Shown: positions 10-27,122 of the stretch, piece by piece | Layout of the letters: every line of letters begins with the position of its first letter | Position numbering within the stretch: the first letter of the stretch is position 1 | From: Acidobacteriota bacterium | GTDB lineage: Bacteria; Acidobacteriota; Thermoanaerobaculia; Multivoradales; J023 | Assembly: GCA_029263395.1 (NCBI GenBank) | Contig: JAJCXO010000215.1 | Span: forward strand, 1 to 64,000 | Length of the DNA stretch: 64,000 bases | Direction: 5' to 3' | Position numbers and translations under genes: made by a program | The notes under the pieces: generated by a model | What the model was told of the DNA's origin: nothing | Seen by the model: only the letters and a program-made list of their open reading frames with translations | The model's database searches: none

Positions 10-2421
10 ATGAGCGACTACCCCGCCGTCTCCAGAGCTACCGAGCAGGCCCTCGAACTTTCGAGCCTGCTACAGCTCGTGGCACACCAAGCTGCCTCTG
101 ATCTTGGCCGACAAAGGATCGAGGTCCTGAGCCCATTCGGAGCCGAATCAGAGCTCAAGAGGCACCGTCGACGTTACGAAGACGTTCGTCGACTAGCAGC
201 AGCCCAGCCGCTGGTGCCCCATTGTGATCGGCCATTCGAGCCACAGCTGACAGCCATTCAAGCCGGTGGGCACAGGTTGACTGGCCGTGACCTAGTCAAT
301 ATCGGAAAGCTGCTCGCTATCGCTTCGGGCGCCATTAGACGTCTCGCCGCTACCGACCCACCATGCCCAGGACTAGACGAGTTGATCGCCGAGCTCCCGA
401 GATGTGATGATCTCGAACAGGCCCTGCGAAAAACCTTTGACTCCCGAGGCGAAATTCGGGAGAACGCTTCTCCGCGCCTTGCCGAGTTGCGCAGCCAGTT
501 GCGCCGGGTGCGCAACCGTATCTATCAACAGCTCGGTGACCTGGCGGAGCAGCATCGCGACGACCTGCGCGAAGAAACCATCCCGATGCGTGGAGGAAGG
601 CTGGTCCTGGTTCTGCAGGCCGGCTCCAGGGGCCGGATACCAGGCCTGATTCACGGCCAGTCGGGAAGGGGCAAAAGTTACTACTTCGAACCTCTGGAGG
701 CTGTGGAAGACAACAACCGGCTCCAGCAAACGTCCGACGAAGAGGCGGCAGAGAAAAGACGCATCTTGGCAGAGTTGATCCAACGCCTGCTCGACGAACA
801 ATCAGCCGTGACGGCGAACGCTATGCTGGTCGCTGAACTCGATGCTCTGCAGGCTGCAGTTCGCTTCGCCGAAATGAGTGGTAGCCATTTGGTTGATCTC
901 GGATCACGGCATGAGCTCAAACTCATTGGAGCACGCCATCCATTGCTCGACCCTAATCTTGCCGAACTGCGAAAGGAGGCTTTGGACCAACCAGGACACA
1001 GCGCCCCGATCGTGCCCCTCGATCTTGAGTTAAACGCCGAAAAGCGGGCCTTGGTCATCACTGGCCCCAACGCTGGTGGCAAGACGGTCGCACTTAAGAC
1101 TGTTGGTTTGCTGGCGGTGGCACATCTTTGTGGGCTGCCGATCCCAGCTGCAAGGACTAGCCGGTTGCCGTTTTTTAGCAGTATTGTGGCGACCGTCGGC
1201 GATGAGCAAGATCTGCTAGCCGACCGCTCAACCTTCAGTGGCCGCCTGCTACGGCTCAAGGAAGCGTGGCAAGTCGCAGGACCCGATGCGTTGATTCTTC
1301 TCGACGAGCTCGGGTCTGGCACTGATCCCGAGGAGGGAGCCGCCTTGGCGACGGCTCTGCTCGAGGGATTGGTCGATCGTCAATGCCTGGTCTTGGTCAC
1401 AACCCACCTCAGCCAACTGGCTGCCGCAGCACTCGAAACAGGTGGCGCTTTCTGTGCCGCAATGCAATTCGACGGCGACACAGGCCACCCTACCTACCGT
1501 CTGCTACCCGGTCCTCCTGGTGGAAGTGAAGCCTTGGCGTTAGCCCAACGCCTGGGCTTGCCCCAGTCCTGGATCGACCGTGCCGACGCCTTGTTGGGTT
1601 CGGAGCACCGTGACTTGCGACGGCTCCTGGCCGAGGTCGAACATGCGCGCCAAGAGCTCGCCGAGAAACAGCGCGAGGTCGAAACAGAGCTAGAGGATGC
1701 GACCAAGCTAAGACAACGTTTGGCAACCCAGGAAACTGCAGTGGCCGAGGAACGCAGAAATATCCGCAAGACGCTCAAACGGCAGTTGGAAACCTTCCAA
1801 GACGATATTCGGCGCCAACTAGCTTCTGAAATCGACCGGCTTCGGGCCGAACTCGAAGGTGGCCGACGACGCAACTTGGCCAACGAAGCAACACACCGCT
1901 TGTTCAACTCGGCACCAAGTTTCGACGATGACGCAACCAACGTCGAGACAACCAACCTCGCGATCGGCGGACTCGTGAGGCACCGCCAACTCGGTTGGCA
2001 AGGAAAGCTGGAAAAACTCGATCGTGGCCGTGCCCGAGTCGAGGTTGCGGGTAAAGCATTCCACTGCCAAGAGCACGATTTGGTGGCAACCACCGAACCA
2101 ACGCAGCACCCAAAGCGTGGTTCCAGACCGGCGCCGGGCCGCACGCCGGAATCTAGACCGATAGCGGAGGAGGTGCCGCGAGAGCTCAAGCTGATCGGCG
2201 AACGAGTCGAGCCGGCTCTTCTTCGGCTTGATCACTACATTGACCGAGCGGTGCTCGCGTCCCTACCATCAATTCGTATCATTCACGGTCACGGCAGTGG
2301 TCGACTGCGAGAAGCGGTTCGGAAACATCTCCGCAGCCATCCATCGCTAGCTTCACATCGACCTGGTCGTGACGAAGAGGGGGGCGATGGAGCGACGATC
2401 GCTGTGATTCGAGACGCTTGA
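10..2421 (+). CDS. mutS2: Endonuclease MutS2 (MutS-family ATPase with C-terminal Smr domain)
   Basis: 803 aa, the usual length for MutS2. The N-terminal half is the helical MutS core/clamp without the mismatch-recognition domain of MutS1. The ATPase follows, with Walker A GPNAGGKT at residues 352-359 and Walker B LILLDELGSGTD near 428-439. A long charged coiled coil comes next (about 530-630), then a C-terminal Smr domain from about residue 727. The Smr motif HGHGSGRLR is intact, but the usual DLRG element reads LKLIGERV, so nuclease competence is uncertain. MutS2 is known to bind branched DNA and suppress recombination, and in some bacteria to act on collided ribosomes. The ATG lies ten bases into the window, so promoter and upstream neighbour are not visible. 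It precedes dnaG by 77 bp on the same strand. Confidence 0.95.
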   Translation: MSDYPAVSRATEQALELSSLLQLVAHQAASDLGRQRIEVLSPFGAESELKRHRRRYEDVRRLAAAQPLVPHCDRPFEPQLTAIQAGGHRLTGRDLVNIGKLLAIASGAIRRLAATDPPCPGLDELIAELPRCDDLEQALRKTFDSRGEIRENASPRLAELRSQLRRVRNRIYQQLGDLAEQHRDDLREETIPMRGGRLVLVLQAGSRGRIPGLIHGQSGRGKSYYFEPLEAVEDNNRLQQTSDEEAAEKRRILAELIQRLLDEQSAVTANAMLVAELDALQAAVRFAEMSGSHLVDLGSRHELKLIGARHPLLDPNLAELRKEALDQPGHSAPIVPLDLELNAEKRALVITGPNAGGKTVALKTVGLLAVAHLCGLPIPAARTSRLPFFSSIVATVGDEQDLLADRSTFSGRLLRLKEAWQVAGPDALILLDELGSGTDPEEGAALATALLEGLVDRQCLVLVTTHLSQLAAAALETGGAFCAAMQFDGDTGHPTYRLLPGPPGGSEALALAQRLGLPQSWIDRADALLGSEHRDLRRLLAEVEHARQELAEKQREVETELEDATKLRQRLATQETAVAEERRNIRKTLKRQLETFQDDIRRQLASEIDRLRAELEGGRRRNLANEATHRLFNSAPSFDDDATNVETTNLAIGGLVRHRQLGWQGKLEKLDRGRARVEVAGKAFHCQEHDLVATTEPTQHPKRGSRPAPGRTPESRPIAEEVPRELKLIGERVEPALLRLDHYIDRAVLASLPSIRIIHGHGSGRLREAVRKHLRSHPSLASHRPGRDEEGGDGATIAVIRDA

Positions 2422-13025: not shown

Positions 13026-13028
13026 TCA
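12966..13028 (-). terminator. Two tandem hairpins at the end of the FAD oxidoreductase operon
   Basis: TGATTGCCG (13003-13011) pairs with CGGCAATCA (13020-13028), which includes the stop codon of the FAD gene. GTAGATCTC (12966-12974) pairs with GAGATCTAC (12982-12990). Both stems are 9 bp and perfect. Neither is followed by a T-run on the minus strand, so they may stabilise the 3' end rather than terminate by the classical route. Confidence 0.45.
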
Positions 13029-14141
13029 GCCCTGAACCAAACGCCACAACAGACGCGGTGCGGTCTCGAGACCCAGACGTCGAACGGGCAGGGCACGGCA
13101 GTGGACCGCCAAGAAGCGCGAGAAAATCGCCGGCTCGTGCGCCAAGGCTCGAATGACACGCCGACGCAGAGCCGGTCGACGCTCGATCCACAACAGCAAC
13201 TGCGTCATGGCATCTGGCACTCTCGCGATGCGACGAAAGCGCCGGGAATACAACGACAGGTCGCCTTGTCGCAAGGCTGTGGCCAGGGCAGTCGCCTGGT
13301 GAAAGGCGAGGGATAAACCTTCGCCAGTGATCGCGTCGACGTAACCCGCGGCATCACCAATCAACGCCAAACGACCACGAACCACCGCCTTGGATCGTTG
13401 ACGCAACGGACCGCAACCACGATCCCGCGAAACAACCTCGGCGCCAGTCAAACGGTCCGCGAGCTTTGGGAAACTCTGGATCAGCTGATCAAAGCCAGCC
13501 TTTCGACCACTCCACAAGATCGCAACACCGATCTCTTCCGCCGCTACCGGGGTCACATAGGCTTCGCAGCCATCAGCCCAGTAAACCTCGACGCAATCGC
13601 TCCAGGGTTGCCTCTCGAGATGGCGACGGACTCCGAACCGCTGCCAGGTTGCCGCAGCTGTTTCGAGTCCAGCCCAACGTCGAAGCCGTGAACCCAAACC
13701 GTCGGCACCGATGATCCAGCGGGCGGTGATCGGGCCGCACGACGTCTCCACACCGGTTCGACTGAGGCCATCGACCCGCAAGCCCCATCTGAGATCCACC
13801 CCAAGTTGCTCGGCACGTCGCACCAGACTCTGATGCAAATCGAGCCGACGAACCCCAGCACCCGCGACACCGGGGAAACGCCCCTCGGCCATCGTCTCAC
13901 CATCAAAATAGCGGATGCCGTGAAACGCACGCTGACGATGAGGGTCGAGTTCGACACCGAGAGCGCGCAGCACAGCCAACCCGTCAGGCATCAGACCTTC
14001 GCCACAGGCTTTGTCGATTGGAGGTTGACGACGATCGACCATCATCACCTCGAGCCCTTGCAGGCGTGCCGCGATGGCTGCTGCCAAGCCGCCAGGGCCG
14101 CCTCCAACGATCAAAACCTCGGTGTCGAACTGGGCGGGCAT
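13026..14141 (-). CDS. FAD-dependent oxidoreductase (geranylgeranyl-reductase / aromatic hydroxylase type)
   Basis: 371 aa. The N-terminal Rossmann FAD motif is VLIVGGGPGGLAAAIAARL, followed by the acidic ribose-binding end MMVDRR and the DKACGEGLMPDGL segment common to geranylgeranyl-reductase-like flavoproteins. The second FAD motif GDAAGYVDAITGEGLSLAF lies near residue 270. It is the last gene of a leftward operon after ACP and fatty acyl-AMP ligase, 12 bp behind the latter. Flavoproteins of this class hydroxylate or oxidise aromatic products of type III polyketide synthases (for example SrsC in Streptomyces phenolic-lipid synthesis). The PKS and methyltransferase genes 7 kb away make that role plausible, but the substrate is inferred from context only. 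Confidence 0.88.
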   Translation of the reverse strand: MPAQFDTEVLIVGGGPGGLAAAIAARLQGLEVMMVDRRQPPIDKACGEGLMPDGLAVLRALGVELDPHRQRAFHGIRYFDGETMAEGRFPGVAGAGVRRLDLHQSLVRRAEQLGVDLRWGLRVDGLSRTGVETSCGPITARWIIGADGLGSRLRRWAGLETAAATWQRFGVRRHLERQPWSDCVEVYWADGCEAYVTPVAAEEIGVAILWSGRKAGFDQLIQSFPKLADRLTGAEVVSRDRGCGPLRQRSKAVVRGRLALIGDAAGYVDAITGEGLSLAFHQATALATALRQGDLSLYSRRFRRIARVPDAMTQLLLWIERRPALRRRVIRALAHEPAIFSRFLAVHCRALPVRRLGLETAPRLLWRLVQG

Positions 14142-14153
14142 CCCTTACGTCCC

Positions 14154-15911
14154 CTATTTGCCGCGGGCGTGGGCCAAAGCCGAACGCGCCAATGCCCCGG
14201 CCAGCAACAGCGGCGTCACACGATCAGGAGGCGTTAGATCACCGGCAAGGTGCTGTCGTAGAGCCTCTTGCCGCCGCAGTTTGCCGGACGAGGTGCGGGG
14301 TAAAGTCCCTGGTGGCAGCGCGACAACCTCATCAGGAAGCAAGCCTGTTGCCGCCAACACTGCCCTTACACAAGCTTGCGGAAGGTCGGCAATGCACTCC
14401 GCTTCGACGCCTTTTCGATGCTCCACGAAAAGCAGCAGAGATTCTCCGGTCGCCTCTTCCGGTAGCCAACTGACGGCGACAGCACAACCGCGGCGAACCC
14501 CCTCAGTGTTGTCTACGGCGTGTTCGATCTCGACCGGCGAATGGTTACGACCCCGCAAGATGACGATGTCCTTTGCGCGACCGGTGAGAAAGAGGTCGGC
14601 ATCATGCAAGAATCCCAGGTCCCCGGTGTCGAGCCAGCCATCGGTGAACGCGTTAGCCGTCGCTTGCGGACGATCGAGATACCCTTCCATCAAGGACGGG
14701 CCTCGGACCCACACCCTACCGACTTTGCCGGTATCCAGGGCGCCACCTTCTGTATCGACAATCTTGATGTCGGTCCCTGGTAGCGGCCGACCGACCGACA
14801 CCAATTCGAGACCCTGCGGATCACGGTGGGCACGATTTTCTGTCGCCAGCGCCCGTCGGTCGAAGCGTTCGCTGCGAAACGGTTGGTCGAGGGCAGAGAA
14901 GGTGACCGCCAACGTCGCCTCCGACAAGCCGTAAACTGGCGTCAAGGTCTCGGGACGAAAGCCGTACTGGGCAAAACGCTGTTGAAAGCTGCGCAGCACT
15001 GACGGCGCAACCGGCTCCGCACCATTGAGCGCTACGCGCCAAGCGCTGAGATCGATGCCTTCGATCTCTTCGTCACGAATCTTGTCCACACACAAACCGT
15101 AGGCAAAATTTGGTGCGACCGAAATCGCCGCACCATAACGAGCCATCGAACGTAACCAGATAGCAGGCTTGGCGACGAATACCTCGGGCCCCAAGAGGGT
15201 TAGAACGGCCGGCCTTTCCAGGGCTGGAAAGACGCACCCGATCAATCCCATATCGTGATAGAGCGGTAGCCAACTGAGACCGCTGACTTCATTCTTCGAA
15301 TCGGGCCAAAAGCTGTTGAGGGCTCGCACTTGCGCCAAGATCGCACGATGCGAGAGCGCCACCGGTTTAGGGGCTACCGTTGTACCGGAAGAGAACTGGA
15401 CAAGCGCCAGATCACCCGGCTCGACACCAACCCCTTCCAGCTCTTCGCCCGCGGGCGTCGCACGCTTGTCGACCGCTGGTAAATCACTCAATGTGCAACA
15501 ACCCAGTGGCGGCCGAGCCTCTGCGATGGTGCGGCCCAACAATCGCTTGACGCGTCGGTCGGCCAACACCAGGCAAGCACTGGCCGCCTGCATCATCGCA
15601 GCAGTGCGACTGTGGTACTCATCCAAACGCCCGAGTCGCACCGGAGGATAGAGTGGCACCGGGACCGCGCCGGCCAACAAAATGCCGAAAAACGCATCGA
15701 AAAAATCGCGCCCCGTTGGGTAGATCAATACAACCCGCTGCCCAGGTTCGACGCCGGCTTGACGCAGCGCACGACCCACCCTCATCGCCGCGTGATGAAT
15801 CTCCGACCACTCGGCCCACTCGGCCCGTTCTCGTCGATCGACGAAACGCAAGCCCGTGCCGGGAAACGTCGCGGCACGCGCTAGCAGCTGATTGAGCGTT
15901 TCAACTGGCAA
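14154..15911 (-). CDS. Fatty acyl-AMP ligase (FAAL-type adenylate-forming enzyme)
   Basis: 585 aa. ANL superfamily with the AMP-binding P-loop VQFSSGTTVAPKPVALSH, the FAAL-like SGLSWLPLYHDMGLIG segment and the C-terminal motifs GWLDTGDLGFLHDADLFLTG and RGRNHSPVEIEHAV. FAALs convert free fatty acids to acyl-AMP and load them onto an acyl carrier protein instead of CoA. The partner is encoded immediately upstream and overlaps this gene by 11 bp. The start is a TTG inside the end of the ACP gene, preceded by GGGGGAAG, implying translational coupling. The product is probably an acyl-ACP starter for the nearby type III PKS. Confidence is high for the class; the FAAL-versus-FACL choice rests on neighbours and overall resemblance. 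Confidence 0.9.
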   Translation of the reverse strand: MPVETLNQLLARAATFPGTGLRFVDRRERAEWAEWSEIHHAAMRVGRALRQAGVEPGQRVVLIYPTGRDFFDAFFGILLAGAVPVPLYPPVRLGRLDEYHSRTAAMMQAASACLVLADRRVKRLLGRTIAEARPPLGCCTLSDLPAVDKRATPAGEELEGVGVEPGDLALVQFSSGTTVAPKPVALSHRAILAQVRALNSFWPDSKNEVSGLSWLPLYHDMGLIGCVFPALERPAVLTLLGPEVFVAKPAIWLRSMARYGAAISVAPNFAYGLCVDKIRDEEIEGIDLSAWRVALNGAEPVAPSVLRSFQQRFAQYGFRPETLTPVYGLSEATLAVTFSALDQPFRSERFDRRALATENRAHRDPQGLELVSVGRPLPGTDIKIVDTEGGALDTGKVGRVWVRGPSLMEGYLDRPQATANAFTDGWLDTGDLGFLHDADLFLTGRAKDIVILRGRNHSPVEIEHAVDNTEGVRRGCAVAVSWLPEEATGESLLLFVEHRKGVEAECIADLPQACVRAVLAATGLLPDEVVALPPGTLPRTSSGKLRRQEALRQHLAGDLTPPDRVTPLLLAGALARSALAHARGK

Positions 15912-16140
15912 GCTTCCCCCGCACCACGTCGATCAAGTCCTGGACTGTGACGATCGCCTGTTCGTCCTCTTCGTCGAGACACACCTGAAATCGATCTTCG
16001 ACTTCCATCGCCAGCGTGAGCAACCGAATCGAATCGAGCTCCAGATCCTCAACTAGACGCGCCGTCCGGCCAACCTCGGTGATCTCGAGTTTGTCCCGAA
16101 CCACCTCCGCGATGGCTTGAAATATTTCTTCGTCGGTCAT
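15901..16140 (-). CDS. Acyl carrier protein
   Basis: 79 aa from the ATG at 16140 (MTDEEIFQAIAEVVRDKLEI); an open extension of 22 codons upstream is ignored. Classic small acidic helical carrier with the phosphopantetheine attachment motif LELDSIRLLTLAMEVEDRF, in which Ser of DSI is the modified residue. It lacks the usual L after S (DSIR instead of DSLD), which suggests a specialised rather than the fatty-acid-synthase ACP. First gene of the ACP-FAAL-FAD oxidoreductase operon, and overlaps the ligase gene. It presumably carries the activated fatty acyl chain. Confidence 0.92.
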   Translation of the reverse strand: MTDEEIFQAIAEVVRDKLEITEVGRTARLVEDLELDSIRLLTLAMEVEDRFQVCLDEEDEQAIVTVQDLIDVVRGKLAS

Positions 16141-16407
16141 CGCTGCTGCTGCCTGACAGTTGTTCGGTTGGGGTAGAGCGGACCGCGAGTTTACCTCACT
16201 GTGCACCGCAGGCTCGCGCCTCTCCGTCTCCCGTGGAATTCATTTCAGCAAATCCGATCTCAGCACCATGGCGAAGACCTTCGAGAAAGCAGGATGAGCC
16301 CGCTGGCTGGAACGTTCGGCCATCGATATGTCCGGGATATCGGTAGGGCTCGACAGCTTCGCTCTCTTCGGGACCCATTACCTCGACCTTATTAAAGGAA
16401 CGAACCC
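16141..16407. promoter_or_regulatory. Divergent promoter region between the ACP operon and the fasciclin gene
   Basis: 267 bp separate the leftward ACP operon from the rightward fasciclin gene. On the + strand GGAAC at 16309-16313 and GTCC at 16330-16333 are 16 bases apart, an arrangement like many ECF-sigma promoters (GGAAC / GTC). It would start transcription about 67 bases before the fasciclin ATG. I found no equally good copy upstream of the other genes of the island, so linking it to the ECF sigma at 19.6 kb is speculative. Confidence 0.3.
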
Positions 16408-16929
16408 ATGAAAAAGAACCTTGTTGGATATATTGCCCTAGCCTCACTCTCCGCTCTCTTGCTCGTCGGCTCTGCGATGGCGGGCTCCAGCGCCTCCAAA
16501 GACAGTGCCTCGAAAAACAGTGTCTCCAAAGACATCGTCGACACTGCTGTGGCAGCAGGTAGTTTCAATACCCTGGTTGCTGCTGTCAAAGCTGCTGGCT
16601 TGGTCGACACGCTGAAAGGCGACGGCCCTTTCACGGTGTTCGCTCCCACCGATGATGCCTTTGCAAAACTCCCCGCCGGCACCGTCGAGGGCTTGCTGAA
16701 AGATCCGAAGCAGCTAGCTGCAATCTTGACCTACCACGTTGTGGCGGGGAAGAAGGTTGCGGCAGATGTAGTTGCAGCGAAGTCCTTGTCGACCGTACAA
16801 GGGCAGGACCTATCGATTGACACCTCGTCGGGTGTCCGCGTCAACGGCGCCACTGTCACCACTGCCGACATCATGACCTCGAACGGAGTCATCCATGTCA
16901 TTGACACCGTCCTGATACCACAAAGCTGA
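16408..16929 (+). CDS. Secreted fasciclin-domain protein
   Basis: 173 aa. N-terminal signal peptide ([20 protein letters not shown], cut near AMAGS), a short Ser/Lys-rich linker, then one complete FAS1 domain. The FAS1 signatures are [37 protein letters not shown], the YH motif in [10 protein letters not shown], and the closing [13 protein letters not shown]. Single-FAS1 bacterial proteins are exported and linked to adhesion or stress; some are induced by singlet oxygen in Rhodobacter (from memory). The ATG follows AAAGGA at good spacing. It heads the rightward block that leads to the B12 protein and the sigma factor, but a 329-bp gap with a large hairpin separates it from the next gene. Confidence 0.93.
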
Positions 16930-17258
16930 CTTTGATCTTGGCGATCGGGGGGCTGCCCACCTTCTCCTCCTTGGGGTAGTCACCCGATCGCCAGTCTCGT
17001 CTTACCATCCGCTACGCATACCACCGCCTTGAATCTCTTGTATCGGCTGAGCCCATGGAACGGCGACCACGAGTTCCTTCGGCAGCTGAACCCGCCGCGT
17101 CGGACTCTTTGCCCGACGCACTCCGCAGTCGGTTATCACGACAAGCGGCCGATTTTTTTGCTCGTCGAAACGCCCAGGCGATCGAAACACCTGGTCCCCC
17201 TCGAGCCTCGACGTGGCATACTCGACCATCACGAGTCCAACGTCCAAGGAGTCGCACC
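16930..17258 (+). other. Gap after fasciclin with a large stem-loop
   Basis: Directly after the fasciclin stop, TGGCGATCGGG (16939-16949) pairs perfectly over 11 bp with CCCGATCGCCA (16983-16993). The 33-base loop can fold further (CCCA/TGGG). It lacks a trailing T-run, so it may be a 3'-end stabiliser, a structured small RNA or a terminator variant. Further on a run of seven T residues (17153-17159) follows a weak TCGG/CCGA stem. Open frames here (from 17055) lack coding character and are treated as the 5' region of the DUF1475 gene. Confidence 0.5.
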
Positions 17259-17594
17259 ATGGTTATGCTCTTGCGAGTCCTCTTCGCATCTATCTTGGTC
17301 GCCATGTTGGCGGTCACGGTGACAGCCAGCCTCGATCGCGGCGTTTTCGAGGCGGGTGCCGCATTGTGGCCTGATCCTTGGTTCAAGGCGACGTTGGCCG
17401 ATGCCTACTTCGGCTTCATCACCATCTTCGTGTGGATTGCCTACAAAGAGCGCAGCTGGACGGCACGCGGACTCTGGCTCATTTTAGTCATGGGTTTGGG
17501 TAACATCGCAATCGCCATCTACATGCTGATTCAACTCTTCCGACTGCGGCTCGACGACCCGCTCTCCAAACTGCTCGTGAGAGCCGAGGACTAA
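17259..17594 (+). CDS. DUF1475-family membrane protein
   Basis: 111 aa from the ATG at 17259, selected by an AAGGAG ribosome-binding site seven bases upstream. The frame is open 68 codons further upstream, but that part is basic, low-complexity and without similarity. Three hydrophobic helices: LLRVLFASILVAMLAVTVTA, then the DUF1475-like segment DAYFGFITIFVWIAYKERSW, and LILVMGLGNIAIAIYMLIQL. The function is unknown. It is followed after 9 bp by the DUF1295 gene, so the two are surely co-transcribed. Confidence 0.8.
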   Translation: MVMLLRVLFASILVAMLAVTVTASLDRGVFEAGAALWPDPWFKATLADAYFGFITIFVWIAYKERSWTARGLWLILVMGLGNIAIAIYMLIQLFRLRLDDPLSKLLVRAED

Positions 17595-17603
17595 CCGACG
17601 ACC

Positions 17604-18416
17604 ATGTCAGCCTTGTTTGGACTGGGTCTCGTCATCGTCTTGATGACATTGGTTTGGATCGTCAGCCTGTTCCGTCGTGATGTATCGATCATCGATATCT
17701 TCTGGGGTCTCGGCTTCGTTCTCTTGACGTGGTTCTATCTGTACCAGGGCCCGGGGTTTTCTGGCGCCAGTCCGCGCCAGTTGCTGATGTCGACCCTGGT
17801 CACAGTGTGGGGCACACGGCTCGCGCTTTTCATTGGATGGCGCAACCGAGGACAAGGCGAGGACTATCGCTACGCTGCAATGCGTCAACGGATTGGGCCA
17901 ACGTTCCCGTGGCTCAGCCTGATCACCGTCTTCTGGCTACAAGCCCTTCTCTGTTGGCTGATCGCTATGCCACTTCTGCAGGTGCAACGTCTCTCCGAAG
18001 GCACAACGTCACCACCTCTCGGTGGTCTCGACCTCTTGGGCCTCAGCTTGTTCGCCGTCGGCTTGTTTTTCGAGACGGTTGGGGACTGGCAGATGGCTCG
18101 GTTCAAGTCCGACCCTGCCAACCGCGGCCAAGTCCTCGATCGTGGACTTTGGCGCTATACCCGCCACCCCAACTACTTCGGGGATGCAACCGTCTGGTGG
18201 GGTCTCTCCTGCCTGGCACTGGCCACTCCAAGCTCAGCGTGGATTCTCTTTAGTCCTATCTTGATGACATTCCTCTTGCTTCGTGTTTCAGGGGTTGCGC
18301 TGTTGGAAGAGGGTCTGAGCAAGACCAAACCGCAATATGCCGACTATGTGCGTCGCACCAGCGTATTTTTACCGTGGCCACCCAAACCAGAAAGCCATCG
18401 GCGACAAGGGTCCTAG
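17604..18416 (+). CDS. DUF1295 / steroid 5-alpha-reductase-like membrane protein
   Basis: 270 aa with six or seven hydrophobic segments. The DUF1295 signature near the C-terminus is LWRYTRHPNYFGDATVWWG, which resembles the NADPH/S-adenosylmethionine-binding end of steroid reductases and ICMT-type methyltransferases. The N-terminal VSIIDIFWGLGFVLLTW is also typical. Members are probably lipid-modifying membrane enzymes. In proteobacteria, DUF1295 genes belong to light- and singlet-oxygen-induced clusters with cyclopropane-fatty-acid synthase and photolyase (established association, recalled). Here the gene ends 44 bp before the B12-binding photoreceptor-like gene, supporting the same theme. 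Confidence 0.88.
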   Translation: MSALFGLGLVIVLMTLVWIVSLFRRDVSIIDIFWGLGFVLLTWFYLYQGPGFSGASPRQLLMSTLVTVWGTRLALFIGWRNRGQGEDYRYAAMRQRIGPTFPWLSLITVFWLQALLCWLIAMPLLQVQRLSEGTTSPPLGGLDLLGLSLFAVGLFFETVGDWQMARFKSDPANRGQVLDRGLWRYTRHPNYFGDATVWWGLSCLALATPSSAWILFSPILMTFLLLRVSGVALLEEGLSKTKPQYADYVRRTSVFLPWPPKPESHRRQGS

Positions 18417-18460: not shown

Positions 18461-19570
18461 ATGAGCGAATCGACATCCTTCACCGCCGAGATCCTGGAAA
18501 CCAGCGCGTCTGCCTATGCTGGCTGCGCCGCCCACCTCTTCTTGGAGCAAAATCCCGAGATTGCTGACGAGTCTTCGCGGGGCGACCTGCGGACCTGGAA
18601 ATCTCATTTGACCCATCGTGTGCTGGAGCTCTCGGCTGCGGTTGGAGCGGAAGAGCCGGCGATCTTCGCGGCTCGGTTGCAGTGGGCAGGCAAAGCCTTC
18701 GACGCTCGCGATATGAAGACGCGCGATTTGCGATCGAGCCTCGCCTGCCTGCGCGAGGTGCTGGCAGAAGAGTTGCCCGAGATCGCCCGTGAGACGGCTA
18801 CGAGCTACATCGACTCTGCGCTCGATGCTTTCGATCAGCCACCCAGCAAACCAGCGATGGGTTCAGGGCTCGATCCCGCGAACCCGACGGATCGACTGGC
18901 GCTGCAATACCTTCAAGCGGCGCTGGAAGGCGACAGCCCCCACGCCGTCGACATCGTCATCGCAGCGACTGAAGATAGCCTGAGCGTCCAAGACGCCTAC
19001 TTGAAAATACTACTCCCGGCCCAACAGGAGGTCGGACGCCTGTGGCATACCGGCGACCTTCGAATCGCCGAAGAACATCTGGTGACGACAACAACCGAAC
19101 GAGTTATGTCGATCCTCGCTTATCGTTCGACTGCGCTCGCTGCAGCAGGGTCTGTTGCATTGCCGTCTACCGCCCATGGCAAAACCGTTCTCTCGGCAAC
19201 GGTCGCCGGTAACACCCATCATTTGGCGGTGCGGGTGCTCGCCGACTTCTTCGAGATGGCAGGTTGGCGCTCGATCTGCCTGGGAGCCAATGTGCCACCT
19301 TCCGACTTGGCCACCGCAGTCGTGTACTTCGACGCCGATCTTTTGATGCTTTCGGCAGCCTTGTCAACGCAAATCAAAATGGCTCGTCAGACCATCGAAG
19401 AAGTACGTCAACTGCCAGATCGCACAACTAAAATCTTGGTCGGTGGCAGCGGGTTCAACGACGCTCCCGAGCTTTGGCAGCGGATAGGGGCTGATGGACA
19501 CGCCCTGACGGCAGACTCAGCCGTCACCTTGGGGGCGCAACTCGTTGGGCTCGGATCCTCAGACCCTTAA
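18461..19570 (+). CDS. CarH/LitR-like B12-binding protein lacking a MerR DNA-binding domain (putative photoreceptor)
   Basis: 369 aa. Residues 1-140 are a helical region of unknown family with no MerR winged helix. Residues 145-225 form the four-helix B12-binding cap and contain the complete Wx9EH light-sensor signature: W195, then E205-H206 in RLWHTGDLRIAEEH. Residues 240-365 are the Rossmann B12-binding domain. The axial-ligand motif ExHxxG of CarH appears as N251-T-H253-H-L-A, so the coordinating His is present while flanking positions differ. The second half has LLMLSAALSTQ and ILVGGSGFN, as in corrinoid-binding domains. CarH/LitR proteins bind adenosylcobalamin and change state on illumination. 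Lacking its own DNA-binding domain, this protein more likely acts through a partner, and the next gene, 74 bp downstream, is an ECF sigma factor. Confidence 0.87.
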   Translation: MSESTSFTAEILETSASAYAGCAAHLFLEQNPEIADESSRGDLRTWKSHLTHRVLELSAAVGAEEPAIFAARLQWAGKAFDARDMKTRDLRSSLACLREVLAEELPEIARETATSYIDSALDAFDQPPSKPAMGSGLDPANPTDRLALQYLQAALEGDSPHAVDIVIAATEDSLSVQDAYLKILLPAQQEVGRLWHTGDLRIAEEHLVTTTTERVMSILAYRSTALAAAGSVALPSTAHGKTVLSATVAGNTHHLAVRVLADFFEMAGWRSICLGANVPPSDLATAVVYFDADLLMLSAALSTQIKMARQTIEEVRQLPDRTTKILVGGSGFNDAPELWQRIGADGHALTADSAVTLGAQLVGLGSSDP

Positions 19571-19644
19571 TCGCACCGGTATTGTCTCGACTAGCGTCCG
19601 ATCGCAGATCCTGCCGCTTACCAGAGATATACTGCTCACCTCTT

Positions 19645-20202
19645 ATGTCCGCGAAACCGATCGAGGACCCTAGCCCTGACATCCTCGCACGCTTGGGCGA
19701 GGGTGACCCCGGAGCTGCAGAGGAGTGCCTAGACCGCTATGGTGCCATGGTCTGGTCGCTTGCTCGACGGTTTTCTCCGAGCCCATCGGATGCCGAGGAT
19801 GCTGTGCAGGAGATTTTCTTGGCGGTCTGGAAAAATGCCGCCCGCTTCGATCCGGCGAAGGCTTCCGAACCGACCTTCATCAACATGATCGCACGGCGGC
19901 GGTTGATCGATCTGCATCGCCACAAGCAACGTCGGCCCGAAGCGACAAGTAGCGAGCTCGAGCTCGAAACCATGGTGGACCAGCGATCCGGCGAAATCGA
20001 AGCGCGAGCCGAGATGCGACTTGCATCGCGAGCGATAAAAGACCTTCGGCAAGTCGAGCGCGATGCCATTTTGCTTTCGACTTACCACGGCATGTCGCAT
20101 CGTGAGATTTCGCAGAACATGGATCTACCCCTCGGGACCGTCAAGACTTACATCCGCAGAGGTCTCAACCGAGTCCGCGAGCAACTAGAAACTATCGGCT
20201 AG
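19645..20202 (+). CDS. ECF-family RNA polymerase sigma factor
   Basis: 185 aa from the ATG at 19645 (MSAKPIEDPSPDILARL); the 21-codon upstream extension is rejected. The sigma-2 domain carries the -10-binding and core-binding helices (YGAMVWSLARRF, DAEDAVQEIFLAVWKNAARF, INMIARRRLIDLHR). After a short linker, the sigma-4 domain is LRQVERDAILLSTYHGMSHREI followed by the recognition helix LPLGTVKTYIRRGLNRVREQL. No anti-sigma factor of the usual zinc-finger or membrane type is next to it. The upstream B12-binding protein is the natural candidate regulator, as litR-litS pair in Streptomyces (established precedent, there with a MerR-type LitR). Its stop codon overlaps the convergent SRPBCC stop in one CTAG. 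Confidence 0.94.
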   Translation: MSAKPIEDPSPDILARLGEGDPGAAEECLDRYGAMVWSLARRFSPSPSDAEDAVQEIFLAVWKNAARFDPAKASEPTFINMIARRRLIDLHRHKQRRPEATSSELELETMVDQRSGEIEARAEMRLASRAIKDLRQVERDAILLSTYHGMSHREISQNMDLPLGTVKTYIRRGLNRVREQLETIG

Positions 20203-20681
20203 GCAGCAGGACTCACAGCAGCCTGCTGCACGTCAACGCCATCGAACAGATGCTTCAACTGCTCGTGGCGATAAGAGAAAATTCGCTTCAAATCCGGGGC
20301 AACGAAGAGATTCCGGATGAGGCTTCCACCCAACACGGCATAGTTCACTTCGTCGTCAACCCAGGTGCCGCCATCGGCCTCGCGAAACCGGTGTTCGTGA
20401 TGCCACATGCGATAAGGCCCGCGGCGTTGCTCGTCCACAAACCGAAAAGGCGGCTCCCATGCGGTGATTTCGCTGCGCCAACGCAGCGGAATACCGTGCA
20501 CCCGTAGTCGATAGTCGATCAGCGCTCCGACCCGCATCTCGACCGGTACTGGGGTCATGATCTCGAACTTCAGCAGCGGCGGCGTCAGGCTCTCAAGGTT
20601 TTCCGCACAGGCGAAGAAATCGAAGACCCTCTCGATTGCGTGCGGAAGGAATATCGAACGCTCAAACGTGAATATCTTCAT
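20199..20681 (-). CDS. SRPBCC-family protein (START/polyketide-cyclase fold)
   Basis: 160 aa. Opens with FTFERSIFLPHAIERVFDFF, the usual SRPBCC entry strand and helix, followed by NLESLTPPLLKFEI, the core WRSEITAWEPPFRFVDEQRRGPYRMWHHEH-type strands and a C-terminal helix with IFSYRHEQLKHLF. These domains bind hydrophobic ligands; members near lipid or polyketide genes may act as cyclases or lipid carriers. The ATG at 20681 has a strong AGGAGG seven bases upstream. It is the last gene of the membrane protein-PKS-methyltransferase operon (51 bp after the methyltransferase). Its stop shares the palindrome CTAG with the ECF sigma stop. Confidence 0.88.
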   Translation of the reverse strand: MKIFTFERSIFLPHAIERVFDFFACAENLESLTPPLLKFEIMTPVPVEMRVGALIDYRLRVHGIPLRWRSEITAWEPPFRFVDEQRRGPYRMWHHEHRFREADGGTWVDDEVNYAVLGGSLIRNLFVAPDLKRIFSYRHEQLKHLFDGVDVQQAAVSPAA

Positions 20682-20732
20682 AGTGGTTCCTCCTCTATGA
20701 AGTACGACATCGCCTGACTGTTGGATGAGGAC

Positions 20733-21314
20733 CTACCTCGGGATCAAGCGACTGCGGTCACCCAACTTTTCGAAATAGTCTGAGTGGGCCGCTAACGCTT
20801 CCTCCTCGACCTTGATCCGAACCCGCAGTACGAGAGCATTGGCGATCGAGAACAACAACGCGGTCCACCAAGCGCCATGGACCAGCGGCAGGGCTGCCAC
20901 TTCGACGATCACCGCCAAGTAGTTGGGGTGGCGCAGCCAGCGGTAAGGGCCTCCTACCGATGGCGATTCTTCAGGCACCACAAAAACCCGGGTCGTCCAA
21001 CGATCACCTAGACTCGAAATGGCCCAGTAGCGCAAACCCATCGTGCCGACAACAAGCGCCAGCATCGTCAGGCCGAGCCATGGCACAAACGGCCGTTGTT
21101 GCCAAAACACTTCGACTGGCGCGGCAATCAGCAGCCCGGTGTGCATCAGAGCCATCGGACCAAAATGCGACTGTCCCACCTCGAAACCGCCCCGGGCCCG
21201 CAGACGACGGGCATTACGCTGGGTGATCACGAGCTCCATCAACCGCTCGATGACCACCAGGCCGATCAGACCAACAAAAAGCCACCGGGTATCCATTGCG
21301 GCGCCATCCATCAC
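20733..21314 (-). CDS. Isoprenylcysteine carboxyl methyltransferase-like membrane methyltransferase
   Basis: 193 aa. Four or five membrane helices with the ICMT/PEMT C-terminal signature GGPYRWLRHPNYLAVIVEV followed by E-rich RIKVEEEALAAHSDYFEKLG, the SAM-binding region. Such enzymes are encoded next to type III polyketide synthases, and in Streptomyces griseus SrsB methylates alkylresorcinols. The gene begins with GTG immediately followed by ATG at 21311; either could be the start. It starts one base after the PKS stop codon, so translational coupling is very likely. It is predicted to O-methylate the PKS product in the membrane. Confidence 0.88.
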   Translation of the reverse strand: MMDGAAMDTRWLFVGLIGLVVIERLMELVITQRNARRLRARGGFEVGQSHFGPMALMHTGLLIAAPVEVFWQQRPFVPWLGLTMLALVVGTMGLRYWAISSLGDRWTTRVFVVPEESPSVGGPYRWLRHPNYLAVIVEVAALPLVHGAWWTALLFSIANALVLRVRIKVEEEALAAHSDYFEKLGDRSRLIPR

Positions 21315-21315
21315 G

Positions 21316-22371
21316 TTACCAGCGCACCAGGACGAGCTCGGAACAAAAGCCCGGGCCCATGGCGGTGATCATGCCGTAACTACCCGCCGCCGGACGGTGC
21401 TGGTCCATCGTCTCTCTCAGCACCAGCAGCACCGAGGTCGAGGACAGGTTGCCAACTTCACGCAGACTCTTCCACGTCACTGCCAGCGCCTCCGGCCCGA
21501 GTTCGAGCCCTTCCTCCATCGCCTGCAGTACCTTGGGGCCTCCGGGGTGACAGACCCAGGAGGAAACATCGTCCCGTGTCAGCCCATGGTCAGCCAGGAA
21601 GGTGTCGACATCCTCGCGCAGATGACCGGTCACCATTTGCGGAACCTCGGCCGATAACACAATACCAAAACCGAGCTCCGAAATATCCCAACCCATGACG
21701 CCTTCGGTGTCGGGGTAAAAGATCGAGCGTGTGTCGAGCACCTCGGGACCAGACGCCGCCGTCTGATGCTCGGCACCACTGATGACGACCGCTGCCGCAC
21801 CATCCCCGAATAGGCCGGTGGCAATAAGATTCGGAATCGACAGGTCTCGCCGCTGCAGGGTCAACGAACAGAGTTCAACCGACAGCAGCACCGCAACCTG
21901 GTCGGGGAAGGCGCGCACATAGTCGACCGCACGGGCGATCCCGGCGGCGCCGGCAACGCAGCCCAGGCCAAAAATCGGTGTGCGTTTGACCGATGGTGAC
22001 AAGCTCAGCCGATTCATCAACCGGGCGTCGAGGGATGGTGTCGCAACCCCGGTGACCGTGACGGTAAACAAGGCATCGATATCCGCAACCCCGAGACCGG
22101 CACGATCTAGGGCATCACGGACCGCCTCGGCGCCGATATCCTGCGCCACCTTGATCCAAGCATTATTCGCTTTGCCCCAGGTGTCGAGCTCGTCGTACTC
22201 CTCGATCGGCAACGCGAGATGGCGCCCGCCGACGAGAACGTTGCGATGCAATCGATCCAGTCGTTCGGGGTTGTGGTGCTGCTGCGCCCATTCAGACTTG
22301 AGCGCACCGAGCAGCTGATCTTGATCGTAGTAGTTGGCAGGAAAAGCTTTACCCACCGCCGAAATTCGCAA
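21316..22371 (-). CDS. Type III polyketide synthase (chalcone/alkylresorcinol synthase family)
   Basis: 351 aa, normal for the family. The catalytic triad is visible: Cys138 in IFGLGCVAGAAG, His275 in WVCHPGGPKVL and Asn308 in REVGNLSSTSVLLVL. The end GPGFCSELVLVRW matches the conserved C-terminal loop. These enzymes extend a fatty acyl (CoA or ACP) starter with malonyl units to alkylresorcinols or alkylpyrones. The start is a TTG (MRISAVGKAFPANYYDQ); it is backed by GAGGAG eight bases upstream and by N-terminal conservation. It lies 30 bp behind the membrane protein gene and is directly coupled to the methyltransferase. Together with the ACP/FAAL operon it defines a phenolic-lipid-type pathway. 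Confidence 0.95.
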   Translation of the reverse strand: MRISAVGKAFPANYYDQDQLLGALKSEWAQQHHNPERLDRLHRNVLVGGRHLALPIEEYDELDTWGKANNAWIKVAQDIGAEAVRDALDRAGLGVADIDALFTVTVTGVATPSLDARLMNRLSLSPSVKRTPIFGLGCVAGAAGIARAVDYVRAFPDQVAVLLSVELCSLTLQRRDLSIPNLIATGLFGDGAAAVVISGAEHQTAASGPEVLDTRSIFYPDTEGVMGWDISELGFGIVLSAEVPQMVTGHLREDVDTFLADHGLTRDDVSSWVCHPGGPKVLQAMEEGLELGPEALAVTWKSLREVGNLSSTSVLLVLRETMDQHRPAAGSYGMITAMGPGFCSELVLVRW

Positions 22372-24563: not shown

Positions 24564-24740
24564 CGGAGACCTAGAGAGTGGAGATCGGGGTGGCGCAAGC
24601 TTTGAGAGCGGCGTCGCGGACGATATCGTGCAGCATCATACCATGGACTCTCAGGGGCCCTGTTCGGTTCCGGGCAGCCCGAGTTAGAACCCTCGTTAAG
24701 CCAGTGTGAACCTCACAACCACGAGGTGAAAATCTCAGGA

Positions 24741-25054
24741 CACCTCTGCGAACTTCACACACCCGAGTTGCGATTCGCAGAACGCCTCTGTGAACTTCAC
24801 ACACCCGAGTTGCGATTCGCAGAACACCTCTGTGAACTTCACACACCCGAGTTGCGATTCGCAGAACGCCTCTATGAACTTCACACACCCGAGTTGCGAT
24901 TCGCAGAACACCTCTGTGAACTTCACACACCCGAGTTGCGATTCGCAGAACACCTCTGTGAACTTCACACACCCGAGTTGCGATTCGCAGAACGCCTCTG
25001 CGAACTCTACACACCCGAGTTGCGATTCGCAGAACGCCTCTGTGAACTTCACAC
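24741..25054. repeat. Array of seven 42-bp tandem repeats plus a partial eighth
   Basis: Units start at 24741, 24783, 24825, 24867, 24909, 24951 and 24993, each exactly 42 bp. A 20-base partial unit occupies 25035-25054. Units differ at only a few positions (CAC or CGC at the start, TGTG/TGCG/TATG). Each unit contains two palindromes with single-base centres, TGTGAACTTCACA and TGCGATTCGCA. Their centres are 21 bp apart, half a unit. Because 42 is divisible by three, spurious ORFs run through in several frames. It lies in the 591-bp space between the protease start (24563) and the acetoacetyl-CoA synthetase stop (25155). A degenerate TGTGAACCTCACA occurs just upstream near 24703. Confidence 0.97.
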
Positions 25055-25154
25055 GGACGATAAGGTCCAGAGCGTTCGACAAAAACACACGTTGGGGGAC
25101 GACGACTCCGTTGATCTAGGGAATTTCGGCCAGACCCGACGTCGGGAACGAATC

Positions 25155-27122
25155 TCAGCTCGCCAGTTCGGGTAGATCTCGGAACAACTCGAGAGCTTCC
25201 GGATTGGCCAGGGCATCCGCATTCTTCACTGGCCGACCGTGGATAACCTCACGCACCGCCAACTCGGTGATCTTGCCGCTCAAGGTGCGTGGGATATCCG
25301 CGACCAGGACAATCTTCTTGGGCACATGGTACGGCGAAGCATTGGCCTTGATCTGCTGACGAATGCGACCGCTCAAGTCGTCTGAAAGCTCGACGCCGTC
25401 GCGCAGCCGCACGAACAGCACGATACGAGTGTCGTCGCCCCACTGCTGGCCAATCACCAAGCTCTCGACAACCTCATCGTTCTGTTCGACCTGACGGTAG
25501 ATTTCTGCGGTGCCGATGCGCACCCCTCCAGGGTTGAGGGTGGCGTCAGAGCGACCATAAATGATCATGCCGCCACGTTCGGTGATCTCCGCCCAATCAC
25601 CGTGTCGCCAGATGCCAGGAAAGTGTTCGAAGTAGGCGGCGTGATATCTGGAACCGTCGGGATCGTTCCAGAATTCGACCGGCATGGAGGGGAACGGTTC
25701 GGTACACACCAATTCTCCCTTTTGGCCAACCACTGACTGGCCGGCATCGTCGAACACTTCCACTTTCATACCCAAGCCACGGGTTTGGAGCTCACCGCGA
25801 TAAACCGGTGCAATCGGGTTGCCGAGAGCAAAACAGGAGATCAGATCGGTACCACCCGAGATCGACGACAGGCAGACGTCGTTTTTGATGTCGCGATAGA
25901 CAAAATCGTAACTCTCCGGTGCCAACGGCGAACCGGTGGAGAGGACAGCCCGCAAAGCGGAGAGATCGTGCGCTCGCCCAGGGTGCAGACCCTCTTTTTC
26001 AACCAACGACAAGTATTTGGCACTGGTGCCGAAAATCGTGATCTGCTCGCGCGCCGCCATCTCGAACAGAATGTCGCCCCGGGGTTTCACCGGCGAGCCA
26101 TCGTAGAGCACCACCGTGGCACCCACCGCCAGGCTCGACACCAGCCAATTCCACATCATCCAGCCACAGGTGGTGTAGTAGAAGATGTGATCGTCACGCC
26201 GCAGGTCGGTGTGGAGGATCAGCTCTTTCAAGTGCTGGATCAAGGTTCCGCCAGCGCCGTGCACCATACATTTCGGTAGGCCTGTCGTGCCCGAGGAGTA
26301 CATGATGTAGGCCGGGTGGGCGAAGGGTTGTTGAGAGAAGTCGATCTCCCCGGGCTCGAAGTTGCCCACGAAGTCTGCCCAGGTCACGACCCGATCCGAG
26401 AAGGCGAGATCCGGCGTGGGGTCCAGATAGGGCACAACCACGACCTGTTCGATCGCCGGAATAGCCAACAACACCTTCTGAACCCGCTCCAGGGAGCCAA
26501 ACGTCTTACCGCCGAAGCGGTAACCGTCCGCCACGAACAACACCTTGGGGGCGATCTGACCAAAACGATCCAGCATACCCTTGGCGCCAAAATCCGGCGA
26601 GCAAGACGACCACACCGCCCCCAGGCTGGTGGCGGCGAGCATTGCCATCACCGTCTGGGGCAAGTTGGGCATGAATCCCGCAACCCGATCACCGGGCTCG
26701 ACCCCCAGCCGCCGTAAAGCTTGCGCTAGACGGGAGACCTCGTCGTAAAGCTCGGCGTAGCTGTGCTCGCTTTGGCGCCCGGCTTCGTTCCAAAACACCA
26801 CCGCGGCACGATCGTCGCGGTAGCGCAGAAGGTTCTCGGCAAAATTGAGCCGTGCTTCCGGAAACCAACGTGCACCCAGCATGGTTTCTGCTGGCTGGAG
26901 GGTCACCTCCGGCGGTTCGGAGGCGACGATCCCACCGTAATGCCACATGGCTCGCCAGAACGCGGCAGGCTCGTCGACCGACCACTGATAAAGCGAGGGA
27001 TAGTCGGTCACCGACGGCACGGCGGCGCCCACCTCGTGGATGAACGCCGTCAGGTTGGCTGCGCCGACCCGGTCTTCAGACGGCGTCCAGAACGGATCAC
27101 TCTCATGGGTGGGCTGACTCAT
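25155..27122 (-). CDS. Acetoacetyl-CoA synthetase (acetoacetate--CoA ligase)
   Basis: 655 aa, typical for this enzyme. ANL superfamily; the N-terminus has the acetyl/acetoacetyl-CoA synthetase cap (YPSLYQWSVDEPAAFWRAMW). The P-loop YSSGTTGLPK is at residues 275-284. The acetoacetate-type middle segment is YTTCGWMMWNWLVSSLAVGA, and the C-terminal adenylation Lys lies in IPRTLSGKITELAVREVI. It activates acetoacetate to acetoacetyl-CoA with ATP. It starts 24 bp after fumarylacetoacetase, whose product is acetoacetate, so the pair forms the last steps of tyrosine/homogentisate catabolism feeding acetyl-CoA production. ATG start at 27122. Confidence 0.95.
   Translation of the reverse strand: MSQPTHESDPFWTPSEDRVGAANLTAFIHEVGAAVPSVTDYPSLYQWSVDEPAAFWRAMWHYGGIVASEPPEVTLQPAETMLGARWFPEARLNFAENLLRYRDDRAAVVFWNEAGRQSEHSYAELYDEVSRLAQALRRLGVEPGDRVAGFMPNLPQTVMAMLAATSLGAVWSSCSPDFGAKGMLDRFGQIAPKVLFVADGYRFGGKTFGSLERVQKVLLAIPAIEQVVVVPYLDPTPDLAFSDRVVTWADFVGNFEPGEIDFSQQPFAHPAYIMYSSGTTGLPKCMVHGAGGTLIQHLKELILHTDLRRDDHIFYYTTCGWMMWNWLVSSLAVGATVVLYDGSPVKPRGDILFEMAAREQITIFGTSAKYLSLVEKEGLHPGRAHDLSALRAVLSTGSPLAPESYDFVYRDIKNDVCLSSISGGTDLISCFALGNPIAPVYRGELQTRGLGMKVEVFDDAGQSVVGQKGELVCTEPFPSMPVEFWNDPDGSRYHAAYFEHFPGIWRHGDWAEITERGGMIIYGRSDATLNPGGVRIGTAEIYRQVEQNDEVVESLVIGQQWGDDTRIVLFVRLRDGVELSDDLSGRIRQQIKANASPYHVPKKIVLVADIPRTLSGKITELAVREVIHGRPVKNADALANPEALELFRDLPELAS

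Follow-up and report, generated by a model that had tools for sequence, protein, structure and literature searches.

The window analyzed here is a 64,000-nucleotide stretch from an Acidobacteriota bacterium (assembly GCA_029263395.1, contig JAJCXO010000215.1, positions 1 to 64,000), which is contig C215 of the 10.7-Mb genome G000; G and L numbers are our labels for the genomes and loci compared. Two genes on its forward strand form the subject of this study. The first encodes a B12 photoreceptor-like protein of 369 amino acids (aa), P0001 (positions 18461 to 19570), identified by its open reading frame (ORF), Pfam, a structure model, and conservation. The second encodes a SigK-type extracytoplasmic function (ECF) sigma factor of 185 aa, P0002 (positions 19645 to 20202, forward strand; Pfam Sigma70_r2/r4_2), which has relatives linked to the anti-sigma factor RskA. 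The sigma factor ATG at 19645 lies 74 bp past the B12 stop codon, and starting instead from a TTG at 19582 would lengthen the protein to 206 aa. An initial annotation of this DNA had reported the light-sensor residues W195, E205, H206, and H253 in a 369-aa protein and an ECF sigma factor gene 74 bp downstream. Both statements hold, with nine residues separating W195 from E205-H206 and the sigma factor confirmed by Pfam and the ORF coordinates. Gene models of the compared loci were derived by codon scoring.

The cobalamin-binding region of P0001 comprises a helical-bundle half (residues 149 to 219, positions 18905 to 19117, forward strand; PF02607, B12-binding_2), which holds W195 and E205-H206, and a Rossmann half (residues 242 to 348, positions 19184 to 19504, forward strand; PF02310, B12-binding), which holds the axial H253. 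For comparison, 88 B12 gene models were reduced to 65 by removal of duplicates, and 54 were placed in a tree; excluded were three rows below 300 aa and eight Azospirillum/Roseomonas rows that shared 68 to 72% identity with a retained row. E205, H206, and H253 were invariant in all 54 relatives and W195 was a tryptophan in 53 of them, a near-invariance which argues that the W-x9-EH signature did not arise by chance. The full-length structure model of P0001 reached a predicted local distance difference test score (pLDDT) of 94.0 and a predicted template modeling score (pTM) of 0.90. In VIA comparisons based on this model, the cobalamin domain best matched the photocobilins SasPcob and AbDPcob (8j2w, 8j2x, 8j2y; Z 25.6 to 26.7), followed by corrinoid proteins, a B12 protein of the MerR family, and CarH, and it also resembled AerR (7te2; Z 20.6). 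Photocobilins, which combine the same CarH-type cobalamin domain with a bilin-binding-type globin, are the closest solved structures to this domain. As judged from its cobalamin domain, the W-x9-EH signature, and the axial histidine, P0001 belongs to the CarH-type B12 light sites, and cobalamin binding and photochemistry are predicted for it by homology. The proposed combination of a CarH-type light site with the lack of a DNA-binding domain was borne out, as Pfam matched no MerR domain in P0001 and residues 1 to 135 form a globin instead. Membership in CarH itself was rejected, since the CarH model aligned only from residue 144 and, at 54 bits, stayed below its cut-off of 400. A search with this model found no protein above the cut-off in 14 genomes, and as 14 control genomes also gave none, this result excludes little.

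The N-terminus had been annotated as an unfamiliar helical region of about 140 residues. This description could not be maintained, because residues 1 to 135 (positions 18461 to 18865, forward strand) show the fold of a photoglobin/phycobiliprotein-like globin, shared with relatives that mostly adjoin kinase-like genes. In profile comparisons with the PDB, the best match was photocobilin 8j2w (E 5.7e-11), and allophycocyanins were also found (E 2.7e-6). Predicted alone, the domain had a pLDDT of 94.4, and Foldseek returned phycobiliproteins, smURFP, and related globins with TMq values of 0.51 to 0.81 among the 50 matches listed. The Foldseek E values were modest (best 3.7e-3, the rest weaker), and the assignment of the globin fold is therefore based on these matches and the sequence profile taken together; the globin part was hardly probed by the full-length lists from Foldseek and VIA. 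Profile and fold rule out an unknown or DNA-binding N-terminus, and an RskA-like anti-sigma domain was rejected as well, since hhalign gave a probability of only 0.3% against the RskA N-terminus. By sequence and structure model, P0001 is built from photocobilin parts with the globin placed first.

In the tree of the 54 relatives, 18 members from Acidobacteriota and Planctomycetota formed a clade (SH-aLRT 99) separate from the other 36. All 18 retained W195, E205, H206, and H253. In excerpts of PMC10151467, the bilin-binding motif is given as CXQD for photoglobins and CXRD for phycobiliproteins. P0001 shares with photocobilins the joined globin and B12 domain but lacks the conserved bilin-site residues of the CxxD type, carrying W46, H49, and R53 in their place. 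Position 46 was a tryptophan throughout the clade, compared to cysteine in 19 and serine in 11 of the 36 outside relatives; D49 was present in none of the 18 but in 32 of the 36, and H53 in none of the 18 but in 30 of the 36. The neighborhoods differed as well: a kinase-like gene adjoined the B12 gene at 37 of 47 loci outside the clade and at 1 of 18 inside, counted as membership in a similarity cluster plus one reference kinase, with one member checked by Pfam. The relatives L018 to L053 (from Azospirillum, Sorangium, Chloroflexota, and others) mostly retain the C/SxxD bilin motif and mostly adjoin kinase-like genes; they are possibly two-component systems fed by a photocobilin.

A B12 gene adjacent to the sigma factor gene was found in 8 of the 18 clade members and in none of the 36 outside relatives (Fisher p 4e-5, uncorrected for kinship), adjacency outside the clade being judged within the available flanks, some of which end close to the B12 gene. 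The pairing occurred in five gene orders and two phyla. The B12 gene precedes the sigma gene in the window, G003, and G103, and follows it at L008 of a Pirellulaceae genome, where it occupies the place of the anti-sigma gene. At L010 the order is sigma gene, shortened RskA gene, B12 gene, in G394 and G072 sigma gene, full RskA gene, B12 gene, and at L007 the genes are divergent and accompanied by RskA. Among 72 genomes of the order, the long B12 protein (E <1e-60) was present in 11, the sigma family (E <1e-40) in 17, and both in 9 (p 1e-5); eight genomes hold the sigma factor without the long B12 protein. The clade-restricted adjacency statistics exclude a chance neighborhood, and the survey of homologues called for in the initial annotation thus found the pair to be conserved. 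These gene-order comparisons support well that the B12 protein and the SigK-type sigma factor are functionally coupled.

The best NCBIfam model for P0002 was SigK, with 119 bits and thus below the cut-off of 226. Within the order, most of its relatives have an RskA_C anti-sigma gene behind the sigma gene and many a fasciclin gene in front of it; a fasciclin gene and a promoter type in common, as expected of a SigK-type system, were both found. In the window, a fasciclin-domain protein of 173 aa (positions 16408 to 16929, forward strand; PF02469, E 9.9e-42), whose family recurs beside SigK-type sigma factors, is encoded 133 bp downstream of a SigK-type promoter-like site, AATCC-N16-CGAA (positions 16251 to 16275, forward strand), recognized by de novo motif search. 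Between it and the B12 gene lie, on the same strand, genes for a DUF1475 membrane protein (positions 17259 to 17594; PF07343, E 1.9e-16; start set by gene model and relatives) and a DUF1295 protein (positions 17604 to 18416; PF06966, E 9e-72), two families which presumably are tied to furan fatty acids. The mycobacterial SigK/RskA/MPT70-83 system is a counterpart with the same anti-sigma/fasciclin layout, as described in excerpts of PMC9861118 and PMC7509140. According to the former, fasciclin genes of Mycobacterium kansasii that carry putative SigK sites are induced by light (PMC9861118).

De novo, the dyad ATCCG-N15-CGAA was recovered from 11 of 36 regions upstream of sigma and fasciclin genes, including the one in the window; among the ten shuffles listed, the commonest dyad occurred at most four times. 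Sites of the type ATCC-N16-CGAA, which we take to resemble the mycobacterial SigK consensus, precede sigma and fasciclin genes, some B12 genes, and one photolyase-like operon. The B12 genes were scored in 64 of 65 cases, L040 being omitted for its nearby contig end. SigK-type sites were located 141 bp upstream of the B12 gene in G394 and, at loci unlinked to the sigma gene, 112 bp upstream in G006 and 9 bp before the called start at L009. Sites of at least 13 bits preceded 3 of 18 genes in the clade and 0 of 46 outside (p 0.02), with the threshold chosen after the scores had been seen. The single scores were modest (16.7, 15.5, and 13.1, compared to shuffle levels of 11.4 at 99% and 16.4 at 99.9%). 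In G006, the gene pair for an SRPBCC and a photolyase-like protein that adjoins the sigma gene has a further such site upstream. Genome scans with a strict pattern gave 31 matches in G000 and 40 in G006, and 3 and 7 with the reversed pattern as a control, an apparent enrichment. When 68 of the scan sites were re-read, 51 lay within genes and 14 were intergenic at no more than 250 bp from a start; as most were inside genes, no regulon was predicted from the scan. In some relatives, a photolyase-like gene, scoring under the cut-off of the phr2 model, adjoins the sigma or B12 gene. In G025 and G023, the B12 gene has photolyase-like or DPRP genes at its side, and other light- or UV-type partner genes at the compared loci encode CMAS, DUF1365, and DUF2878 proteins.

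Around the cassette, the gene downstream of the sigma gene encodes a convergent SRPBCC protein (positions 20199 to 20681, reverse strand; Pfam), whose relative in G006 heads the photolyase-like operon with the SigK-type site. It belongs to a reverse-strand group at positions 20199 to 22371 for SRPBCC, ICMT-like, and DpgA-like type III polyketide synthase proteins, assigned by Pfam. On the other side, a reverse-strand group at positions 13026 to 16206 encodes an AMP-ligase, a carrier protein, and an FAD-oxidoreductase. Apart from the FAD gene, which was not seen there, these flanking genes recur in the sister genome G003 (L055, L199). Locus L199 (G003:C194) has kept the DUF1475, carrier-protein, and AMP-ligase genes, and the fasciclin gene is missing at the equivalent position. 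At about 24726 to 25175, the window contains a tandem repeat that is open on both strands and codes for a repeated peptide of the CELHTPELRFAE type.

ORFs and Pfam revealed no anti-sigma gene beside the window sigma gene. The annotated lack of a normal anti-sigma gene thus stands locally; it fails genome-wide, as contig C33 encodes a second SigK-type sigma factor (G000:C33:19433-19948, L098), 66% identical and accompanied by a full RskA, and C144 another RskA_C protein. The pair at C33 is also present in G003. A stretch at 17088 to 17186 (forward strand) may be an RskA remnant; it weakly matches the C-terminal third only of a hidden Markov model (HMM) built from the N-termini of full-length RskA (E 0.0019 in a search of 20 loci) and is absent in G003. 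We tallied one SigK-type locus in each of 24 genomes, scoring G000 and G003 at the B12-linked locus. A full RskA adjoined the sigma factor in 16 genomes, seven of which lack the B12 protein (G039, G040, G018, G002, G034, G022, and G033). RskA was cut to its sigma-binding N-terminus of 69 to 90 aa in G006, in G103, and at L010, and no RskA was found beside the sigma gene in the window, in G003, at L008, in G005, and in G042. Searches of whole genomes with an RskA alignment gave no match in G444 (the genome of L008), G005, and G042, the short form only in G006 and G446 (the genome of L010), and, in G103, one marginal match (E 7e-4) besides the short form. Loci with a reduced RskA are dispersed over the sigma factor tree, G103 for example being sister to G394 with its full-length RskA, which indicates that RskA was reduced on several occasions. 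The N-terminal part of RskA alone (residues 1 to 85 in one tested pair) inhibits SigK, according to excerpts of PMC7509140, and the shortened RskA may therefore still bind or inhibit the sigma factor without a sensor. In G103, a SpoIIE-phosphatase protein (L124, positions 273 to 1196, reverse strand) is encoded after the shortened RskA of the B12-sigma cassette, a hint at a partner-switching component.

P0001 probably regulates its sigma factor in a light-dependent manner of some kind. More specifically, we tentatively favor, at somewhat less than an even chance, that it is a cobalamin light sensor which controls its cognate SigK-type sigma factor post-translationally, likely by direct binding, with the sigma factor off in the dark and on in the light. 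In the dark, the adenosylcobalamin-loaded protein would keep the sigma factor inactive; upon illumination, the cobalt-carbon bond would break, the cobalamin domain would rearrange, and the sigma factor would be freed. It might then transcribe a photoprotective set comprising the fasciclin gene, the DUF1475 and DUF1295 genes, and, in a relative, the photolyase-like gene. The sensor and sigma genes may also be part of this output, which would establish negative feedback as with ordinary anti-sigma factors. The globin, having lost its bilin-site residues, may act as a contact surface. In the barest systems, those of the window type and L008, the B12 protein would be the sole candidate inhibitor encoded with the sigma factor, and where a full RskA is present it would provide a second input. 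In some lineages, RskA may have passed through a series from the full protein over the sigma-binding domain only to complete loss. The full form of this idea, a cobalamin photoreceptor turned anti-sigma factor whose bilin globin was rebuilt as a sigma surface and which displaced RskA in some lineages so that light frees the sigma factor directly, is conceivable, though we consider it doubtful. Sigma binding and the direction of the switch are both predictions. AerR binds its partner in the light state, and such binding here would reverse the sign, against a dark-off/light-on switch. Action by protein contact has a precedent, as standalone photocobilins alter a partner by contact in vitro (excerpts of PMC10979010).

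Several observations weigh against direct control by P0001. The absence of RskA beside the sigma gene applies to some genomes only, since 9 of the 16 full-RskA genomes carry the B12 protein (G004, G394, G072, G021, G064, G024, G025, and the genomes of L007 and L009), three of them with RskA beside the B12-sigma pair itself. The B12 protein occurred in 7 of 8 genomes with a reduced or missing RskA compared to 9 of 16 with a full one, a difference that is not significant (p 0.19). G042 has the sigma factor, no RskA match, and no B12 protein of the clade, its sigma gene lying near a contig end. With the RskA_C family model, G005 and G006 each yielded a single protein, whereas G000 and G003 each yielded two, one of which accompanies the paralogous sigma factor. 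Other anti-sigma factors of this broad type therefore remain in these genomes; the protein of G006 and one of G000 (on C144) adjoin more distant sigma factors, and G444 was covered by the RskA alignment and not by the RskA_C model. Retention of the mini anti-sigma in three lineages suggests that the domain is still useful there. The pairing with the ECF sigma factor, although real across two phyla, is not strict, as in 10 of the 18 clade members the genes lie apart or no sigma factor was found, and two of the 11 carriers in the order, G019 and G023, lack such a sigma factor at E <1e-40. Finally, the promoter test assigned no SigK-type site to the B12 gene of the window itself, which we assume to be transcribed within the upstream operon.

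The B12 protein could instead act through an RskA-type domain, as an anti-anti-sigma factor or adaptor, with light or dark freeing or locking the sigma factor; for the window genome, the target would be the RskA that accompanies the paralogous sigma factor. RskA or its short form beside the pair at 5 of 8 adjacent loci (L010, G103, G394, G072, and L007) agrees with this idea, as do the RskA_C proteins retained elsewhere in G000 and G003 and the SpoIIE phosphatase of G103, a hint of further partners. We nevertheless regard it as rather unlikely, for there is no RskA beside the window pair, and the RskA alignment found no match in G444, which holds the L008 pair, or in G005, though G005 has one other RskA_C protein. 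It is also conceivable that the B12 gene merely belongs to the sigma regulon and that its product regulates something other than the sigma factor. The SigK-type sites upstream of B12 genes at unlinked positions in two genomes would fit, as would the full RskA in nine carrier genomes and the kinase-like neighbors of outside relatives, which may regulate histidine kinases. Within the clade, however, kinase-like neighbors are nearly lost, the B12 gene of L008 sits in the place of the anti-sigma gene, and a reduced or missing RskA recurs among carriers, if not significantly. On balance we consider this explanation unlikely.

Very improbable, in our assessment, is an ordinary dual-chromophore photocobilin whose globin still holds a bilin or another tetrapyrrole non-covalently. 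The globin fold and family relationship speak for it, and loss of the motif is compatible with non-covalent binding of biliverdin. Against it stand the replacement of C/S46, D49, and H53 in the entire clade and the distribution of the classical heme oxygenase PF01126 over 14 carrier genomes, 2 of which have it while it is absent from the other 12, including G000.

Direct control of the sigma factor by P0001 would draw on known components, as photocobilins, CarH, AerR, and SigK/RskA have all been described. P0001 differs from photocobilins by its leading globin, the replaced bilin-site residues, and the pairing of its gene with a SigK-type ECF sigma gene. In excerpts of PMC10979010, the B12 domain of photocobilins may stand at either end, and STAS, SpoIIE, and PP2C partners are predicted for SasPcob with no mention of an ECF sigma factor. 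CarH/LitR repressors share the W-x9-EH signature and the axial histidine, but P0001 lacks the MerR domain and is not expected to have a DNA target. AerR/PpaA antirepressors and AppA-SCHIC are likewise of the B12 type, lack a DNA-binding domain, and act on a transcription regulator, yet their partner is the repressor PpsR/CrtJ, whereas an ECF sigma factor is proposed here. SigK-RskA (ECF19-type) systems share the sigma family, the fasciclin partners, and, in most relatives, the RskA_C anti-sigma factor; in contrast, the membrane anti-sigma factor is absent beside the window sigma factor and trimmed in three relatives, and the B12 protein replaces or adjoins it. Rhodobacter RpoE-ChrR provides light-linked ECF sigma control of photoprotection. 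The same holds for Myxococcus CarQ-CarR (excerpts of PMC9304148), but both sense singlet oxygen via a membrane or zinc anti-sigma factor and not by a photoreceptor chromophore. For some ECF19 members, soluble anti-sigma factors are listed in the available text of PMC8999054, in which cobalamin or B12 is not mentioned. The available text of PMC11796333 names fusions of light-responsive B12 domains to helix-turn-helix, diguanylate cyclase, bilin-binding, GAF, MEDS, and other domains, with no sigma factor among them. In the literature searched, no description of an ECF sigma factor as the partner of a B12 photoreceptor was found; the photoglobin paper (Schneider 2022), which lies outside that literature, may mention such neighborhoods. 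The pairing is thus a variant of photocobilin-type signaling for which we found no prior report.

If direct control is confirmed, a photoreceptor would act on a sigma factor without an intermediate, assembled from two well-understood parts, and would constitute a natural two-gene light switch for transcription with a single step from photon to promoter. The poorly understood SigK/RskA family would then, in some environmental bacteria, sense light and photodamage, and an evolutionary series would be suggested in which an anti-sigma factor was pared back as a new sensor took over.
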